From a virus, in the IMG/VR virus record IMGVR_UViG_3300042346_001592, positions 1 through 64,000 of that record: 64,000 bases of DNA; one strand, written 5' to 3'. A program made the translations under genes and the position numbers. Shown here in pieces: positions 5,379 through 63,250 of this stretch; position 1 is the stretch's first letter, and each line of letters opens with the position of its first letter. The notes beneath the pieces were generated by a model. That model saw only the letters and a list, made by a program, of their open reading frames with translations. It made no database searches and had not been told where the DNA came from.

Positions 5379-6350
5379 ATGCTTATATTGTATGGCATAC
5401 AAACAACTGGACTAGGTCATCTATCAAGAAGTTTAAAAATAATCAAATCTCTTGAAAAAAGAGGCCACAAGGTTGATATCGTCACTTCTGGTCCAGATCA
5501 GAATATTTTAGATATAAAATCAAAACATTACAAAGGATATTCTTTTTTAAAAAATAAAGGGGGTGAAATTAGTATCACCCAAACACTTTTCGGTCAAGAT
5601 ATTTCTCAATTATACCGAGATATCAAAAACTTTCCTAAAAGAGATTATGATTTTGTTATTTCTGATTTTGAACCTATCTCTTCTTGGGTTTCCAAACACA
5701 GAAATATTCCTCTTTTTTCAGTATCTAATCAATCTAATTTTTCAAGTAGTAACTACACAAGACCCTTAAGTATTCTTGCCCTGAGTGAAGTAGTTATGAA
5801 AATTGGGATACCTTTTGGAAGACCGATTGGTTTTCACTGGAAACCATTTGATAATTTTATCTATAAACCTATTATAAGAGATGAAATATTCTTCGCTGGT
5901 GATAGGAAAGAAGAAGATTATTATTTAATCTATATAAACAATATGAATATAGAGAACACGATTGGTGTATTGAAGAGATTCGTGAAAGAAAACTTCATCA
6001 TTTATTCATCTGGCCCATATAGTGATAACTTACCAAAAAATATAAAAATAAAACAACTCAATTTCGAGAGCTTCACTAAAGATTTGATATCTTGTAAAGG
6101 TGTTATAACCAACTCTGGTTTTTCTACAATCACCGAGGCTATTTTTCTAGGAAAAAAATTAATGTCTGTTCCTCAAAAAAATCAATGGGAACAACTTTGT
6201 AATGCTTATGATCTAGCAAGGGATGGTTTTTTCATAGATGATAGCCTTGATAATTTAGATAAATTTATCGAAAGTCCTAAAACTACTATTGAACCTTGGA
6301 GTGATCCTTCAGAGGATATCGTAGATGAGATTCTTTTTGGGGTTGAGTAG
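5379..6350 (+). CDS. GT-B glycosyltransferase (MurG/GT28-like)
   Basis: The N-terminus has the GT-B acceptor-domain signature GIQTTGLGHLSRSL, as in MurG-like and MJ1255-type glycosyltransferases, where a Gly-rich loop is followed by a helix. The C-terminal half holds the expected donor-binding region: GVITNSGFSTITEAIFLGKK (about residues 247-266), then a conserved QWEQ.NA segment. Length (323 aa) is normal. No signal peptide or membrane span is visible. Donor and acceptor are unknown; it is one of several transferases scattered through the phage core region. Confidence 0.8.
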   Translation: MLILYGIQTTGLGHLSRSLKIIKSLEKRGHKVDIVTSGPDQNILDIKSKHYKGYSFLKNKGGEISITQTLFGQDISQLYRDIKNFPKRDYDFVISDFEPISSWVSKHRNIPLFSVSNQSNFSSSNYTRPLSILALSEVVMKIGIPFGRPIGFHWKPFDNFIYKPIIRDEIFFAGDRKEEDYYLIYINNMNIENTIGVLKRFVKENFIIYSSGPYSDNLPKNIKIKQLNFESFTKDLISCKGVITNSGFSTITEAIFLGKKLMSVPQKNQWEQLCNAYDLARDGFFIDDSLDNLDKFIESPKTTIEPWSDPSEDIVDEILFGVE

Positions 6351-35654: not shown

Positions 35655-37283
<1,629 letters not shown>

Positions 37284-41367: not shown

Positions 41368-41817
41368 ATGAAGTCTTTACCTATACTTACTTACGAAAAA
41401 ATACACGAGGATGCTGTTTCTCCTCTTTATAACTACCCATCAGATTCTGGTTTCGATCTACATTCAATAGAAGATATACAAATATTACCACTTGGTAGAT
41501 ACCTAGCGCCTACCGGACTTAAACTAGGCATTCCAAAAGGTTACGAAGTTCAAGTTCGGACTAAAAGTGGATTAGCACTAAAACAAGGTCTTGTTGTTCT
41601 TAATAGTCCAGGAACCATCGATCAGGGATATACTGGTGAGATAAAAGTTATACTTTATAACTCAAGTCAAACAATTATAAGGGTAGAAAAAGGTCAAAAA
41701 ATAGCTCAAGCTTGCCTATGTCCAGTTGTTAGTGGTGGTGGATTGACCTTAGAACAAGTTCAAGAAGTTGAAGATAAGGAACGAGGTGACAATGGTTTCG
41801 GATCTACCGGAATCTAA
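41368..41817 (+). CDS. dut: dUTP diphosphatase
   Basis: All five trimeric dUTPase motifs are present in order: SGFDLHS, RTKSGLA, LNSPGTIDQGYTGEIKVI, GQKIAQ and the C-terminal GDNGFGSTG. The 149-residue length is standard. It lowers dUTP and supplies dUMP for dTTP, useful for phage DNA synthesis. The following aminotransferase gene begins within or just after its 3' end, so the two may be co-transcribed. Confidence 0.95.
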   Translation: MKSLPILTYEKIHEDAVSPLYNYPSDSGFDLHSIEDIQILPLGRYLAPTGLKLGIPKGYEVQVRTKSGLALKQGLVVLNSPGTIDQGYTGEIKVILYNSSQTIIRVEKGQKIAQACLCPVVSGGGLTLEQVQEVEDKERGDNGFGSTGI

Positions 41818-41830
41818 AAAAAATGAATAT

Positions 41831-42961
41831 ATGATCAATGTCTTTGGATCAAAAGTAGATGAACAAGAGATTTCAAGTGTTATTCAAGTTATGAAATCTC
41901 AATGGATGGGGTATGGAAAAAAAGTAGAAGAATTTGAAGAACTCTTTAAGAAATCCAGAGGTGTAGATAATTTTATTTTAGTAGATAGTGGATCTAACGC
42001 CTTGTTTATGGCTCTTCACCTACTAGATCTACCAAAAGGATCTGAAGTAATACTACCCTCTTTCACTTGGGTATCTTGTGCACAAGCAGTTCTTATGGCT
42101 GGATGTCGGCCTGTATTTTGCGATGTAGATCTATTTTCTCATAATGTTACAGTAGATACTATTAGTGAAAAAATTACAGAAAATACATCAGCTATCATGG
42201 TTGTCCATTACGCAGGAAAACCAGTAGATCTTGAACCGATAAAGACATTAGGTCTTCCTATTATTGAGGATGCTGCTCATGCTGTAGATTCATACTACCG
42301 AGGAAAACTTTGTGGATCGCTAGCAGACGTCGGTATATTTAGTTTTGATGCGGTAAAAAACATAACTACTATAGAAGGTGGTGGAATTATCACTAAAAAT
42401 GTAGAAATGCTCGAAAGAGCTAAAAGATTAAGGTATTGTGGTATCGGAAAATCAGGATTTGAGGCAGCTGCAAGTGGAGCATCTGAAAAAAGTAGATGGT
42501 GGGAGTATAACATTTCTGAACCTTTTATTAAAATGCTTCCAACAAATGTCGGAGCCGCTGTAGGTATCGAACAATTGAAAAAAATAGATGAACTTCAATC
42601 TTCAAGGAAGTGGATGTGGGATTATTATCAAGAAAATCTTCAAGAGGACTGGATTATAAATCCTGTGGAACCGTTACCTGATGAAAAACATTCCTATTTT
42701 ACCTATGTAATATCTGTTAGTTGTGATAGAGATGGATTAGCTAAATATCTTCTTGATAATCAAATCTATACTACTTTGAGATACCACCCACTTCATATGA
42801 ACACTCTTTATCAAAGTGTAGATAAGCTACCGAATACGGAAAAGTTGAATCAACAAGCACTCAGTATTCCAATACATCCGAATTTGACTAGAGAACAAGT
42901 TGTATATATTGTTGAAAAAATAAAAGAATATGGAAACAAAGATAAAAACACACGAACATAA
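41831..42961 (+). CDS. DegT/DnrJ/EryC1-family sugar aminotransferase
   Basis: A typical PLP-dependent sugar aminotransferase: LVDSGSNALFMALHLL, PSFTWVSCAQAV, IEDAAHAVDS and FSFDAVKNITTIEGGG, in which Lys is the expected PLP Schiff-base residue (contrast the His-His form at 54143). It would add an amino group to a nucleotide-linked keto sugar. Alternative in-frame starts exist at 41792 (ATG) and 41768 (TTG), overlapping dut; 41831 is the first that avoids overlap. The next gene, a cupin, overlaps its end by 32 nt, as in FdtA/FdtB-type pairs. Confidence 0.88.
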   Translation: MINVFGSKVDEQEISSVIQVMKSQWMGYGKKVEEFEELFKKSRGVDNFILVDSGSNALFMALHLLDLPKGSEVILPSFTWVSCAQAVLMAGCRPVFCDVDLFSHNVTVDTISEKITENTSAIMVVHYAGKPVDLEPIKTLGLPIIEDAAHAVDSYYRGKLCGSLADVGIFSFDAVKNITTIEGGGIITKNVEMLERAKRLRYCGIGKSGFEAAASGASEKSRWWEYNISEPFIKMLPTNVGAAVGIEQLKKIDELQSSRKWMWDYYQENLQEDWIINPVEPLPDEKHSYFTYVISVSCDRDGLAKYLLDNQIYTTLRYHPLHMNTLYQSVDKLPNTEKLNQQALSIPIHPNLTREQVVYIVEKIKEYGNKDKNTRT

Positions 42962-43373
42962 AAAATTCATAACAAAAGATTATTCAGGTAATGAGAATGG
43001 ATTTTTAGTTCCAATTTTGAATATACATGATAATATTTTAGAAGGTGACCAGTTCCCTCAACAAGTTTATCTCTCGACTGTCCTTCCAAAACACATGAAA
43101 GGACCACATCTTCATAATATTCGTAGCGGTTATTTTACCTGTATTCGTGGTAATGTTAAAATCGTCTTAAAGGTAGATGGTAAGTATCTTGAATATTTTA
43201 GTGGTGAAGACTATAATTATCTTTCTGTTCAAGTTCCAAAAGGTGTCCCTGCGCTTGTTGTGTGTCTAGGTGATATAGAAGCTTATCTGTTGAATATGCC
43301 AAGTCCAGCTTGGACACCAGATATGAACGATGAACACACCAGTGATTTTAGTGATTATTTTTCTAAACTATGA
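42930..43373 (+). CDS. Sugar-nucleotide cupin (RmlC/FdtA-like)
   Basis: A single cupin domain: KGPHLHNIRSGYFTCIRGNV (two His in the first motif) and the second motif near PKGVPALVVCLGDIEAYLLN. The layout fits 3,5-epimerases or 3,4-ketoisomerases acting on dTDP-4-keto sugars. It overlaps the aminotransferase end by 32 nt and the next gene by 4 nt (ATGA), so the three genes form one unit likely making a modified sugar. The exact reaction cannot be assigned. Confidence 0.65.
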   Translation: METKIKTHEHKKFITKDYSGNENGFLVPILNIHDNILEGDQFPQQVYLSTVLPKHMKGPHLHNIRSGYFTCIRGNVKIVLKVDGKYLEYFSGEDYNYLSVQVPKGVPALVVCLGDIEAYLLNMPSPAWTPDMNDEHTSDFSDYFSKL

Positions 43374-53210: not shown

Positions 53211-54146
53211 ATGAATATAAATAAAAAGTACCTCATAACAGGATCTGATGGATTAGTGGGTTCTGCTTTGAAAAGATTATTAGGACAAGGACATATTTTT
53301 CACGAAAAAAAAGAAATAGATCTATTGAATAGAGAAGAAACAAAAGAATATTTTCGATATCACTGCGAGAATAATGGAGTAAATGCTGTTATACACTGCG
53401 CCGCAAAAGTTGGAGGTGTTCAAGCCAACATGAACAACAACAAAGATTTTTTTTTACAAAATTTTATTATAAACAACAATGTGGTAGAATCTCTCATAGA
53501 AAATGAAGTTCCTTTTTTTGTAAATCTTCTTTCGACTTGTATTTTTCCAGATAAAAATATTCTTTATCCATTAACATCGGACCAAATCAATATGGGTGAT
53601 CCTCATCCTTCTAACCACGGATATGCATTCGCAAAGAGACTTTCTGGTGATTTAACCAAAATGATAAGAAAAATTTATGGACACAACTGGATCTCAGTGG
53701 TTCCAACGAATGTTTATGGTGAATTCGACAATTTCAACTTAGAGAACGGTCACTTGGTACCCGCTATAATCCATAGGTCTTTTTTATCCAAAACAAGTTC
53801 ACAACCTATGATTTTGTGGGGGGATGGTAGCCCTCTCAGACAACTCATTTATTCGGAAGATTTAGCTAGATTGATAATCTGGGCTCTTGAAAATTGGAAT
53901 GTAGACAAACCTTTTATGGCTGTAAACCCAAAAGAACATAGTGTTTTAGAAATAGCAACAATTATTTGCGAAAAAATGGAAATATTATCTAAAGATCTCA
54001 TTCTAGACCCAAATAAACCAACAGGACAATTTAAGAAAACAGCATCCACCGATGCACCCACAGATTTCAAATTCACAGATTTGCACTTAGGGATAGAAAA
54101 AACTATAACTTGGTTTAAAAAAAATTATCCCAACATTAGATCATGA
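53211..54146 (+). CDS. GDP-fucose synthase / ColC-like epimerase-reductase
   Basis: An extended SDR enzyme: NAD(P)-binding YLITGSDGLVGSALKRLL near the N-terminus, the AAKVGGVQANM segment, catalytic STCIFP, and YAFAKR as the YxxxK pair (about residue 140). These are hallmarks of GDP-4-keto-6-deoxymannose 3,5-epimerase/4-reductase (Fcl/WcaG). ColC, which reduces GDP-4-keto-3,6-dideoxymannose to GDP-L-colitose, belongs to the same family and is the more likely role next to a ColD-like gene. It overlaps that gene by 4 nt. Confidence 0.75.
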   Translation: MNINKKYLITGSDGLVGSALKRLLGQGHIFHEKKEIDLLNREETKEYFRYHCENNGVNAVIHCAAKVGGVQANMNNNKDFFLQNFIINNNVVESLIENEVPFFVNLLSTCIFPDKNILYPLTSDQINMGDPHPSNHGYAFAKRLSGDLTKMIRKIYGHNWISVVPTNVYGEFDNFNLENGHLVPAIIHRSFLSKTSSQPMILWGDGSPLRQLIYSEDLARLIIWALENWNVDKPFMAVNPKEHSVLEIATIICEKMEILSKDLILDPNKPTGQFKKTASTDAPTDFKFTDLHLGIEKTITWFKKNYPNIRS

Positions 54147-55297
54147 AAAAAATTACCTTAATTAAAGATACAATAGATGAGCATGATATCGGAAATTTAA
54201 TAAACTGGTTACAAAAAAATCCTAGATTGACCAAAGGTGATTATACTATTCAATTCGAACAAGAATGGTCAAAATGGTTAGGTGTAAAATTTTCAGTTTT
54301 CGTCAATTCAGGGTCATCAGCAAATTTAGCATCAATATATTCACTTTATTTATCTGGTAAATTAAAAAACAAAAAAGTGGTAATTCCTGCTGTGTCGTGG
54401 GCTACTACAGTTTCACCAATAATTCAACTAGGCCTGGATCCAATAATGTGTGATTGTGATAGAGAAAATTTGGGTTTGGATATAAATTCACTACAAAAAA
54501 TAATAGAATTTGAAGATCCTGGTGCTATAATACTAGTTCATGTTCTTGGAGTACCCAATAAAATGGATGAAATAATAGATATATGTAAAAAAAATAATAT
54601 TTTATTGGTAGAAGATACCTGCGAATCTATTGGTTCAATGTATAGAGGCAAAAAATTAGGAAATTTCGGGGATATTTCAACTTTTTCATTTTATTTTGGT
54701 CACCATATGTCAACAATAGAAGGTGGTATGATATCTACCGATAATGAGGAATTATACCATATTTTATTATCTATAAGATCGCATGGATGGGATAGAGATT
54801 TACCAAAATCAAAACAAAAAGATCTCAGAAAAAAATATTCTATTGATGATTTTAGTGCACTTTATACCTTTTATTACCCTGGTTTTAATATAAGATCTAC
54901 GGATCTACAAGCTTTTATAGGCCTGGAACAACTAAAAAAAATCAACGATATAATAGATAAAAGAAATAAAAATTATGAATTTTATCACAGTCAAATAAAA
55001 AATAATTTTTGGAAAATTGAACCGCCGAATGATTCTTTTATAAGCAACTTTGCCTATCCAATAATTTCACCAAGCAGATCTAATTTAATAAAAGAGTTAG
55101 AAAAAAACAATATTGAATGTAGACCACTCATTTGTGGTTCTATGTCAAAACAACCATTCTGGTATGAAAGATATGGTCAAGGTTCTTTCCCAAATAGTAA
55201 TCTTGTGCATGAATTAGGAATTTACGTGCCAAACAACCATCAACTAGAAAGTGAGGAAATAAAATTAATAGTAGAAGTAATTAATAAATCTATATGA
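54143..55297 (+). CDS. ColD-like PMP-dependent sugar 3-dehydratase
   Basis: A DegT-fold enzyme (SGSSANLASIYS, VPAVSWATTVSP-type region, EDTCESIGS) whose active site reads FSFYFGHHMSTIEGG with His187-His188 instead of the PLP-binding Lys. The His-His form is diagnostic for the pyridoxamine-phosphate dehydratases: ColD (GDP-4-keto-6-deoxymannose 3-dehydratase; catalytic His188) and the CDP-sugar enzyme RfbH/E1. Flanking genes gmd and fcl/colC favour ColD. The product would be a GDP-3,6-dideoxyhexose on the route to colitose. Confidence 0.8.
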   Translation: MKKITLIKDTIDEHDIGNLINWLQKNPRLTKGDYTIQFEQEWSKWLGVKFSVFVNSGSSANLASIYSLYLSGKLKNKKVVIPAVSWATTVSPIIQLGLDPIMCDCDRENLGLDINSLQKIIEFEDPGAIILVHVLGVPNKMDEIIDICKKNNILLVEDTCESIGSMYRGKKLGNFGDISTFSFYFGHHMSTIEGGMISTDNEELYHILLSIRSHGWDRDLPKSKQKDLRKKYSIDDFSALYTFYYPGFNIRSTDLQAFIGLEQLKKINDIIDKRNKNYEFYHSQIKNNFWKIEPPNDSFISNFAYPIISPSRSNLIKELEKNNIECRPLICGSMSKQPFWYERYGQGSFPNSNLVHELGIYVPNNHQLESEEIKLIVEVINKSI

Positions 55298-56286
55298 AAA
55301 AAGTATTAATAACTGGAATAAACGGCCAAGATGGATCTTATCTGGCGGAGTTTTTATTAGAAAAAAATTATAAGGTCTTTGGAACTTTAAAACGTAATTC
55401 GGTATCAGAAAACCAAACATACAGAATAGAAAAAATACACGATAGTGTTAATCTCGATTATGCCGATATGACCGATCTATCCTCGTTGATAAGTGTTATA
55501 AAAAAAGTAAAACCAGACGAAATATATAATCTTGCGGCTCAGTCACATGTTCGTATATCATTCGACCAGCCAATTTATACAGCTAACGTAACGGCCATAG
55601 GTACTCTGAATTTGTTAGAAGCAGTGAAAATTATAGATACAAACATCAAAGTTTATCAAGCCTCTTCTTCTGAAATGTTTGGAAATAATATTGATCCTGA
55701 TGGTTTTCAAAGAGAAACAACACCTATGAGTCCGGTCTCACCCTATGGATGTTCCAAAGTTTTTAGCTACAATATATGTAGAAATTATAGATATTCCTAT
55801 GGTTTATTTGTATCTAATGGTATATTATTTAATCACGAATCACCCAGAAGAGGAACAAATTTCGTGACTAACAAGGTATGTAAAGAAGCAGTAAGAATTA
55901 GTCTTGGATTATCTGAAAGACTAAAACTAGGTAATCTCGAGGCCACAAGAGATTGGGGACACGCAAAAGATTATGTTAAGGCTATGTGGCTTATTTTACA
56001 ATTGAAAAAGCCAGATGATTTTGTGTGCTCAACAGGTTTATCACATTCAGTTAGAGATTTGTGTGAATATGTTTTTTCTAAATTGAAATTAGATTACAAA
56101 AACCACGTAGAAATTGATCAAAAATTCTTGAGGCCAGAAGAACTGAACCATCTGAAAGGCGATAGTAGTAAACTCATTTCAGCTACCGGTTGGAAACCCG
56201 AATATAATTTTGAGAGTATGTTGGATGAAATGATTGAATATTGGTTAGGTTTTTACAATAAACAAACAGATAAGAATATAGAATAA
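55294..56286 (+). CDS. gmd: GDP-mannose 4,6-dehydratase
   Basis: All hallmarks are present: GINGQDGSYLAEFLL, AAQSHVRISFDQP, the catalytic SSSEMFG, YGCSK (YxxxK) and NHESPRRGTNFVT. Length (330 aa) matches Gmd. It makes GDP-4-keto-6-deoxy-D-mannose, the common precursor of GDP-fucose, GDP-rhamnose, GDP-perosamine and GDP-colitose. It overlaps the ColD-like gene by 4 nt; together with the upstream ColC/Fcl-like gene this is a compact GDP-sugar operon. Confidence 0.95.
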   Translation: MKKVLITGINGQDGSYLAEFLLEKNYKVFGTLKRNSVSENQTYRIEKIHDSVNLDYADMTDLSSLISVIKKVKPDEIYNLAAQSHVRISFDQPIYTANVTAIGTLNLLEAVKIIDTNIKVYQASSSEMFGNNIDPDGFQRETTPMSPVSPYGCSKVFSYNICRNYRYSYGLFVSNGILFNHESPRRGTNFVTNKVCKEAVRISLGLSERLKLGNLEATRDWGHAKDYVKAMWLILQLKKPDDFVCSTGLSHSVRDLCEYVFSKLKLDYKNHVEIDQKFLRPEELNHLKGDSSKLISATGWKPEYNFESMLDEMIEYWLGFYNKQTDKNIE

Positions 56287-56326
56287 TTTAAGTTCTTTAA
56301 ATAGATATTAAAAATAAATTATCAAA

Positions 56327-57171
56327 ATGTCATACATAACAAAAACAAATTTAACTCTGAATGCTTTTTTCGGTTCGCAGATTACACAGTTTGCTGGTCT
56401 ATATGCTGTTTCTAGACATTTAGGAATAGAAATAAAAATTTTTCGAGAATATATAAATACCATCTGGGACAATAAATGTTATCCTATTCAACTATTTAAT
56501 GCCTTTGAATTAGATCATTATCTATGTTCAACCGAAGATGTCCAACCAATAGATAAAACTTATAATTTACAGAATACAATAAAAGATGATGATGTATTTA
56601 AATTGGATTCGAATTTTAATTGGGATATCCAGGGTTATTTTCATACATATCATTATTGGCATGAATATAGGAATGATTTAATCAAAATATTGAATTTCAA
56701 AAAAGAAATTACAGAATTAGCAAAAAAAAAAATATCGAACTCATCAAAGGTAGTGATCAAATACCAATAATATCACTACACGTTCGTAGAGGTGATTACC
56801 TACAACTTTCATCTTTGAATTTATCACTCAACTATTTCAAAAAATCCATATCTATTTTTTCAACTTTGTTTGAAAAATTTAAAATTGTTGTTTTTTCAGA
56901 TGATATATCCTGGTGTAAGGATAATATCATTAGTGAACATATATACTTTTCAGAAAATAATTCAAATCATGTAGATATGTGTATGATGACTATGTGCGAT
57001 CATAATATTATAGCAAATAGCAGTTTTAGTTTTTGGGGCGCGTATTTGAATCAACATCAAAATAAGATTGTAATTTGTCCTAAAATGTATATTGGTCTAA
57101 GTGACCAAATTCATCAATTTATTAATTATAACTGGTATCTGAAAGAATGGATTTCTTTAGATATAATCTGA
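56327..57171 (+). CDS. GT11 fucosyl/colitosyltransferase, frameshifted at A11
   Basis: The first frame (56327-56770) carries the N-terminal half of a GT11 alpha-1,2-fucosyltransferase. It is interrupted at the A11 tract (56722-56732); reading one base back restores a frame through HVRRGDYLQL (the GT11 H-x-R-R-x-D motif) to a stop at 57171. Total length then fits GT11 (about 280 aa). The break could be phase variation, programmed slippage or a sequencing error. With gmd and ColD-like genes upstream, the donor may be GDP-fucose or GDP-colitose. Confidence 0.7.
56722..56732 (+). repeat. A11 homopolymer at the frameshift
   Basis: Eleven consecutive A bases lie exactly where the two reading frames of the GT11 gene meet. 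Gaining one A or losing two would rejoin the frames; slippery A-runs also permit -1 ribosomal frameshifting. Confidence 0.85.
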
Positions 57172-61498: not shown

Positions 61499-63250
61499 TT
61501 ATTTGTATATTGGTATGATCATTTCCTTCTCATATATTTCTTTTGGCAAAAACGGAAACATATTTTCAAGAGGCTGGGATATTAGTTTTCCATCATCTGT
61601 TTGTAGTGTAGCAGAAGTTGGGTAAATTTCTTCATTAGGGGGGCATATTATTTCGCATAAATAATATCCTTTATAATTGATAATTGTTTCTAGTTTTGCT
61701 TTTAGTTCATTTATATCGTTAATTCGAGTAAATGGAAATCCGTATGCATAAGCAATTTTTTCAGCATCAGGGAAGGATATTCCTGAAGATGGGCTTTCTC
61801 CAGATAGTCTTTGATTAAAGAATTTAATTTGAGTATTTCTAATAGATAGATAACCCCCATTATTTAATATAAACAATTTTATAGGTAACTTATTTTCAAC
61901 AATAGTTTGTAATTCTTGGATATTAAATTGAAAGGAACCCTCCCCTGTAACACCAATAATAGTTGAGTTTGGATTAGCAAAGCATGCTCCTATGGCAGCT
62001 GGCAATGCAAACCCCATTTCTCCTTGAGCTGAGGGGATTATAAGTTTATTATTAATTAAAGATTGAGCTAATACATAGTAAGATGAACCAGCATCTGTTA
62101 TCACAATTGAATCTTTAGATATTTCAGATAACTCTTTAGAAAAGGAATACATATTTAATTGGTTGATATCATCTCTATCAAAAACAGGCCACATATTTTT
62201 CCAATTAATACATTTACTTATCCACTCTTGATTATTATTTATATAATTCGAAGAGTCAGTTGCAAAAAAATTTGTCAAATCATCTTCAATTATTTGTTCA
62301 ATTTTTACAGTTTCTTTAAGATGTTCATTTTTATCAATATCAACAACTACAATTTTAGCTTTTCGACCGAATAAATGATATTGATAACCAGTTGCTGGTA
62401 TGCTCAATGATGTTCCCAATCCTATAATAAGATCTGAGTTGGCTACAGCAAAATTTCCTGCTCTAGTACCTTTTAAACCTATTCTGCCAACATATAGCGG
62501 GTGGTTTTCAGGGAGAAGATTAGTTCCTAGAAAAGTTACAGCTACTGGTATTTGGTGCTTCTCAACAAATTTTTTAAATGCTTGTTTGGTATTTGATAAG
62601 TTTATACCATTACCTGCTATAATAATAGGGCGTTTTGAATCATTTAAGTATCTCATAAGTACAGATACAGATTTATTATCTATTATTATATCATCAGGAG
62701 TATAATGATGTAGATTATTTTCATCAATTAAAGTAGATTGTATATCTAGGGGGATATCAATCCAAACAGGGCCTGGTCTGTTTGAAGTACATAAATGATA
62801 TGCCTTTTCTAGCTCGTATGCTATATCCTCAGCACTTTCAATCATAACGGCATATTTGGTAATAGATTCAACAATTTTAATTATATTTGCTTCTTGAACT
62901 CCTAATTTTCTTAAGGAAACTTTTTTTAAAAAAGTTGTATCTTTTTTATTAACTTGCCCAGATATAAACATAACTTTATGACTATCTTGCCAAGCATCTA
63001 AAAGTCCGGTTATTGTATTTGTGCTTCCACACCCTGTTGTTGGGATTACTACAGAAACATCATTAGTAACTTTAGTATAACCAACTGCTGCCATAGCACA
63101 TGCTTGTTCATGATGGCAGAATACAGGTTTAATATTACTTTGGGCAATAGCATCATTCAAAAACATAGCCCCACCTCCTGTTACTTCAAATACATGTTTA
63201 ATATTTTTTTGTTCTAAAAATGATGCTACATAATCGGCCACTCTTACCAT
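61499..63250 (-). CDS. Acetolactate-synthase-like ThDP enzyme
   Basis: A three-domain ThDP enzyme: the catalytic Glu in CHHEQACAMAAVGYT (about residue 48), a middle domain with RPIIIAGNGINLS, and the cofactor site GVTGEGSFQFNIQELQT (about 425) plus LFILNNGGYLSIRNTQ. This build matches acetolactate synthase and related carboligases or decarboxylases. In surface-glycan clusters such enzymes are thought to add or remove two-carbon units on sugars or acids. Here it may act with the Ldh-family and RmlB-like neighbours. Substrate unknown. Confidence 0.85.
   Translation of the reverse strand: MVRVADYVASFLEQKNIKHVFEVTGGGAMFLNDAIAQSNIKPVFCHHEQACAMAAVGYTKVTNDVSVVIPTTGCGSTNTITGLLDAWQDSHKVMFISGQVNKKDTTFLKKVSLRKLGVQEANIIKIVESITKYAVMIESAEDIAYELEKAYHLCTSNRPGPVWIDIPLDIQSTLIDENNLHHYTPDDIIIDNKSVSVLMRYLNDSKRPIIIAGNGINLSNTKQAFKKFVEKHQIPVAVTFLGTNLLPENHPLYVGRIGLKGTRAGNFAVANSDLIIGLGTSLSIPATGYQYHLFGRKAKIVVVDIDKNEHLKETVKIEQIIEDDLTNFFATDSSNYINNNQEWISKCINWKNMWPVFDRDDINQLNMYSFSKELSEISKDSIVITDAGSSYYVLAQSLINNKLIIPSAQGEMGFALPAAIGACFANPNSTIIGVTGEGSFQFNIQELQTIVENKLPIKLFILNNGGYLSIRNTQIKFFNQRLSGESPSSGISFPDAEKIAYAYGFPFTRINDINELKAKLETIINYKGYYLCEIICPPNEEIYPTSATLQTDDGKLISQPLENMFPFLPKEIYEKEMIIPIYK

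Follow-up and report, generated by a model that had tools for sequence, protein, structure and literature searches.

A candidate phage-encoded GDP-L-colitose gene set with a split GT11 transferase gene

Colitose, a rare surface sugar of bacteria, belongs to the 3,6-dideoxyhexoses, sugars found at the ends of bacterial O-antigens. The closest described counterpart of the locus studied here is the GDP-colitose pathway of Escherichia coli O55/O111 and Yersinia pseudotuberculosis. In E. coli O55:H7, the colitose locus comprises gmd, a "GDP-L-fucose synthase family protein" (ColC), a DegT protein (ColD) and an "alpha-1,2-fucosyltransferase" of glycosyltransferase family 11 (GT11); WbgN, the GT11 enzyme of E. 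coli O55, transfers L-colitose (PMC11987014). ColD uses pyridoxamine 5′-phosphate (PMP) and a His to expel the C3 hydroxyl, after which the intermediate hydrolyses and glutamate regenerates PMP, with no iron-sulfur (Fe-S) partner (PMC8987622). We analyzed 64,000 nucleotides of viral DNA (hereafter the window; positions 1 to 64,000 of the 142,003-base IMG/VR record IMGVR_UViG_3300042346_001592), in which positions 53211–57171 bring the same four families together in one locus, including a ColD with the catalytic His and without the Fe-S cysteines. Identities to the E. coli O55 proteins are 44.7% for Gmd, 37.6% for ColD, 28.8% for ColC and 29.8% for GT11 (to WbgN, when the gene is read through its frame break). 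In contrast to the enterobacterial pathway, the locus in the window is phage-borne, has another gene order and a split GT11 gene, and takes its reductase from another Fcl lineage.

The isolated Synechococcus phages ACG-2014f and S-CAM7, like the window, carry Gmd, an Fcl/ColC-type reductase, a His-type ColD and GT11 side by side, at identities of 36% for ColD, 47–48% for Gmd and 28–30% for the reductase. Unlike the window, they have reductases of the E. coli-type branch and an intact GT11, and their records label the genes only as "nucleotide-sugar epimerase", "aminotransferase" and "glycosyltransferase". Phage GDP-L-fucose genes, represented by S-SCSM1 and by many Gmd–Fcl pairs in IMG/VR, share with the window Gmd and an Fcl-family reductase, sometimes with GT11; in S-SCSM1, Gmd, GDP-L-fucose synthase and an alpha-1,2-fucosyltransferase are read as GDP-fucose genes (PMC9602691). 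They differ from the window in that most examined contigs have no adjoining ColD, and none is listed for S-SCSM1 in the passage on these genes. Each enzyme family, phage-borne nucleotide-sugar genes in general and a cyanophage with Gmd, Fcl and GT11 were already known; a link between phages and colitose synthesis was not found in the literature searched, which omits most subscription journals.

Taken as a whole, the three intact genes of the locus are best explained as a phage-encoded GDP-L-colitose pathway, a reading to which we assign a probability of about 0.75. A sequence-only reading of the same DNA had proposed that Gmd, ColD and ColC lead here to GDP-L-colitose, and the ColD match, its His187, the presence of Gmd and a reductase clade linked to ColD all point the same way. 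The features of the locus are as follows.

53211..54146, plus strand: gene for a ColC-like, Fcl-family putative GDP-sugar 5-epimerase/4-reductase (311 aa), assigned by Pfam/NCBIfam profiles, solved relatives and linkage across a viral clade
54143..55297, plus strand: gene for a ColD-like putative GDP-4-keto-6-deoxy-D-mannose 3-dehydratase (384 aa), with His187 at the pyridoxal 5′-phosphate (PLP)-lysine site and without [2Fe-2S] cysteines
55294..56286, plus strand: gene for Gmd, predicted GDP-mannose 4,6-dehydratase (330 aa), assigned by profiles and solved relatives
56327..56770, plus strand: N-terminal part of the GT11 gene in the first frame (147 aa), continuous with the next part after a −1 shift
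56722..56732, plus strand: A11 run marking the switch of the GT11 frame, by −1 from the frame upstream; also present in a separate contig
56815..57171, plus strand: C-terminal part of the GT11 gene from the listed TTG start (118 aa), PF01531 at 75.5 bits

The 54143 product matched the DegT profile with 251 bits (Pfam/NCBIfam). Among solved structures, its best sequence match was ColD (2gms, 245 bits), followed by E1 (160 bits) and perosamine synthase (126 bits), which puts ColD 85 bits ahead of E1. An AlphaFold2 model (mean predicted local distance difference test score, pLDDT, 96.5) was searched with Foldseek; ColD chains took ranks 1–12 with template-modelling (TM) scores of 0.88–0.90, and the predicted fold placed ColD before E1, PseC, ArnB and GDP-perosamine synthase. 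The comparison with ColD, RfbH/E1 and perosamine synthase thus favored ColD by sequence and by predicted fold, and the protein did not fall with the Lys-dependent aminotransferases or the CDP-sugar enzyme E1, the outcome that the sequence-only reading had named as contrary to its proposal. In the alignment, His187 occupies the position of ColD His188, the residue that stands in place of the PLP lysine, and His188 that of ColD His189. By this alignment the catalytic residue is H187, and H188 is its neighbor; the HH pair described earlier at 187–188 as replacing the lysine is present, although only its first member occupies the lysine site. His187 was invariant across 39 aligned phage and bacterial relatives. 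Since our ColD profile scans used peptide patterns that included HH, we quote the conservation of His from a sample of viral ColD-type neighbors picked by the reductase and not by ColD. All 30 neighbors had His at the 187 site, and the second position was His in 18 (HH) and Thr in 12 (HT). The four Cys of the E1 [2Fe-2S] cluster were absent from the 54143 product in the sequence comparison with E1, which fits the cluster-free mechanism of ColD (PMC8987622).

The 55294 product, named gmd in the earlier gene set, was matched by the GDP_Man_Dehyd profile (390 bits), and its best solved relatives were GDP-mannose 4,6-dehydratases (333 bits). For the 53211 product, described earlier as ColC/Fcl-like, the GDP-L-fucose synthase profile (177 bits; Pfam/NCBIfam) and the best solved relatives, human GDP-L-fucose synthase (218 bits) and then E. 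coli Fcl (131 bits), confirmed an Fcl-family short-chain dehydrogenase/reductase. Its catalytic residues S108, C110, Y138, K142 and H181 are present, and the S, C, Y, K and H of the active site were conserved in 49 of 49 compared sequences. In human GDP-fucose synthase, Tyr/Lys serve the reduction and Cys/His the epimerisation (PMC12362431). The identity of the 53211 product was 41.9% to the human enzyme, 30.3% to E. coli Fcl and 28.8–30.2% to E. coli ColC. At about 30% to both E. coli proteins, sequence alone cannot decide between ColC and Fcl; alignment with the two, as proposed in the sequence-only reading, confirmed the family and brought the protein closer to neither, and ColC was preferred through the linkage to ColD.

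This linkage was counted within 4 kb of the reductase, as was that of GT11, in viral loci from a scan with the clade of the 53211 product itself (best 80 kept); the tree was built by a quick method, and some of its rows had been picked through ColD. The window reductase sits in a viral clade of 30 rows (100% support in the SH-like approximate likelihood ratio test, SH-aLRT), of which 24 lie beside a His-type ColD, whereas 24 of the 27 rows in the neighboring clade of phage Gmd–Fcl pairs lack ColD. On the whole tree the ColD label required 10 changes against 27.2 in shuffles, none of 500 shuffles being as low, and on the reductase-scan rows alone (22 linked, 33 not) it required 5. Thirteen positions distinguish the window clade from the ColD-free clade. 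The 53211 product does not group with the characterised ColC of E. coli O55 but lies on a different branch of the tree, the E. coli ColC branch being long and its exact placement unsure. The ColD linkage across the viral clade, together with the distance from E. coli ColC, suggests a ColC-like role and an independent recruitment. The 53211 product thus most likely acts as a colitose synthase whose recruitment was independent of that of E. coli ColC, and the association with ColD supports a protein that works like ColC without having descended together with it.

Whether other phages carry this set had been left undecided in the sequence-only reading; many do. Besides ACG-2014f and S-CAM7, dozens of IMG/VR contigs carry it, and the 642-kb phage LR756502 carries the reductase and ColD. 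A profile scan of IMG/VR gave at least 575 relatives among the stretches scanned, and our collection scans kept the best 80 loci. Within 6 kb, 53 distinct viral loci with enough flank had an Fcl-type reductase in 36 cases, Gmd in 33 and all of Fcl, Gmd and GT11 in 12; the corresponding counts for 48 cellular loci were 17, 10 and 0. GT11 was found near 13 of 22 ColD-linked phage reductases versus 6 of 33 ColD-free ones (Fisher p = 0.003). When 14 long related contigs were tested, a T4-type portal was detected in 8 and a terminase in 8, indicating that the gene set resides in genuine phages.

The transferase gene, described earlier as a GT11 transferase, is not intact in the window. The region 56327–57171 consists of two open reading frames (ORFs) in different frames (147 and 118 aa), divided at the A11 run, which is the longest homopolymer of the window. 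Scored singly, only the second ORF matched PF01531, and the first had no Pfam match. Read through with one −1 shift, the gene scored 101.5 bits over positions 32–296 of the 298 of PF01531, and the assignment to GT11 holds in this form. The HxRRGDY motif is encoded as HVRRGDY at 56779–56799 in the second frame, which runs open through A11 ahead of the listed TTG start. A second IMG/VR contig (149,524 bp), which overlaps the record and extends about 49 kb further, was 100% identical to the record over 13,152 bp around GT11, A11 included, and 99.955% identical over the neighboring 6.7 kb, with a few single-nucleotide polymorphisms (0.045% of bases). When near-identical DNA was searched for other A-counts, this contig was again the sole match. 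Since the second contig has the same A11 and polymorphisms nearby, we rejected a one-off assembly error as the full account: the break is not the isolated slip of one assembler. Long A-runs are known slippage sites, and the break may reflect slippage, population variation, a recurrent sequencing artefact or gene death.

Several points weigh against the colitose pathway. The scores of the 54143 product for the ColD family, of the 55294 product for Gmd (TIGR01472, 392 bits, just under 415) and of the 53211 product for Fcl all fall below the NCBIfam equivalog cut-offs, although E. coli O55 ColC itself reaches 304 against 500. The 53211 product is equally distant from E. coli ColC and Fcl and nearest to human GDP-fucose synthase, the active-site comparison found no feature dividing ColC from Fcl, 6 of the 30 members of its clade have no ColD within 4 kb, and the GT11 gene is divided between two frames. 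We also considered two other identities for the 54143 product, a CDP-sugar dehydrase of the E1/RfbH type and an ordinary aminotransferase dependent on Lys. Its top NCBIfam model is indeed RfbH (234 bits), but this score is below the cut-off of 423 and the same model gives E. coli ColD 263 bits; with no Cys ligands, a lower score for E1 than for ColD, Gmd adjacent and His at the lysine site, both assignments were rejected as largely refuted and extremely improbable. A decaying module, with a dead GT11 and no use for any sugar that is made, would agree with a frame break seen in two assemblies. We think this unlikely, as the three upstream genes are intact and overlapping, no other stop interrupts the second GT11 frame, which retains HVRRGDY and full coverage of the profile, and long A-runs permit slippage.

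The operon could instead make GDP-L-fucose through Gmd and Fcl for a GT11 fucosyltransferase, the ColD-like enzyme being a side activity or serving a second sugar with another reductase; GDP-fucose and GDP-colitose could also both arise from the shared intermediate. The kinship of the reductase to Fcl and the human enzyme, the GDP-fucose genes of S-SCSM1 and further GDP-fucose-type transferase domains close by (GT10 at 65726–67399 and a weak FUT8-like match at 64248–65003, record positions) would suit such a scheme. It is nevertheless improbable in our view, given that the reductase clade is tied to ColD and its sister clade of phage Gmd–Fcl pairs is not, that 53211 shares 4 bases with 54143, and that only one full reductase of this family is found in the operon. 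Finally, the 3-deoxy intermediate might be finished otherwise, for example reduced without C5 inversion, yielding a GDP-3,6-dideoxyhexose other than L-colitose. The distance of the reductase from characterised ColC (28.8%) and the 13 clade-dividing positions leave some room for this, but all members of the clade keep the Cys110/His181 pair that GDP-fucose synthases use for epimerisation (PMC12362431), and we regard such an outcome as very unlikely.

Under the GDP-L-colitose reading, Gmd would convert GDP-mannose of the host to GDP-4-keto-6-deoxy-D-mannose. From this intermediate the 54143 enzyme would remove the C3 hydroxyl, using PMP and, as catalytic base, His187, to give GDP-4-keto-3,6-dideoxy-mannose and ammonia, and glutamate would recharge its PMP, following the hydrolytic route of the ColD type without an Fe-S partner. 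The 53211 enzyme would invert C5 (Cys110/His181) and reduce C4 with NADPH (Tyr138/Lys142), forming GDP-L-colitose. Unlike the E. coli/Yersinia pathway, the 142-kb record has no PF00483 nucleotidyltransferase, a possible GDP-mannose maker, and GDP-mannose is therefore probably supplied by the host. A GT11 enzyme of the alpha-1,2 type, like WbgN, would place colitose on a surface glycan, at its terminal sugar; in the phage studied here, the split gene might be expressed at a low level by slippage or be broken, in which case the GT10-like or FUT8-like transferases a few kb away are possible users of colitose. The earlier proposal that the phage can make and attach a 3,6-dideoxyhexose is accordingly supported by its predicted enzymes as to the making and weakened by the frame break as to the attaching. 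Families, predicted fold, catalytic residues, gene order and the recurrence of the set in phages are seen directly in the data, and the activities, the product, the acceptor and a biological role are inferred from them. That role might be to alter the virion or the infected cell at its surface; masking of the host surface and decoration of the virion, both raised before, are guesses. More tentatively, and at somewhat below even odds, T4-like and huge phages may share a mobile cassette for GDP-colitose. Its synthase would have arisen within viruses out of the human-type GDP-fucose synthase lineage, apart from enterobacterial ColC; the cassette would serve to decorate glycans of the virion or infected cell with a 3,6-dideoxyhexose, and the transferase of this phage would be tuned by slippage at A11. 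If the colitose reading is true, a virus with its own pathway and transferase could rewrite an O-antigen-type surface label during infection, and a recurring, vaguely annotated gene set of cyanophages, whose hosts are non-pathogenic, gains a concrete, testable pathway name.

The three intact genes lie consecutively on the plus strand with overlaps of 4 bases each. The plus-strand operon of the sequence-only reading stands in this arrangement: promoter and terminator scans of the DNA were no richer than shuffled sequence (33 versus 31.3 sites and 2 versus 1.6, respectively), so the operon is proposed from gene overlap alone. The record is identified as phage DNA by a match to a T4-type baseplate wedge, by its phage DNA polymerase and by a helicase of the UvsW type. 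The polymerase and helicase are 63–64% identical to those of LR756502, and homologues of 17 of the 53 ORFs from a 50-kb stretch of LR756502 occur in the record. The record thus probably represents part of the genome of a huge phage. The window also encodes a GroEL chaperonin (35658–37283, plus strand; phrog_5725, 589 bits).

Other sugar genes surround the locus. In addition to the GT10 and FUT8-like matches, GT2 matches were found among the neighboring transferases. A second DegT protein with His for Lys (His184) is encoded at record positions 67414–68562 (minus strand), 3.4 kb past the window end. It is closest to E1/RfbH (204 bits; NCBIfam RfbH, 266 bits) and lacks the four Cys of E1. In 79 IMG/VR loci this protein was 74–96% identical, with His in 79 of 79, and its recurrent neighbors were a thiamine pyrophosphate (TPP) enzyme (31 loci), an RmlB-like protein (32), a GT2+GT10 protein (32) and a short-chain dehydrogenase/reductase (34). 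Judged from these comparisons, it is possibly a widespread Fe-S-free NDP-4-keto-6-deoxyhexose 3-dehydratase of phages. In the window, a TPP-dependent enzyme of the acetolactate synthase family (61499–63250, minus strand; best solved match 8rph, 382 bits) lies in a run with an RmlB-like dehydratase (63244–64209) and the His-type E1-like protein; this enzyme could extend a keto sugar by two carbons. Another nucleotide-sugar pair is formed by a Lys-type sugar aminotransferase (41768–42961, plus strand; PseC model, 249 bits) beside a weak FdtA/WxcM-like protein (42930–43373). Outside the viruses, two loci of Candidatus Pacebacteria, with ORFs at 5986 (671–672 aa), join a ColD-like domain to about 290 extra residues in one ORF, and this extension resembles a family 2 glycosyltransferase by eye.

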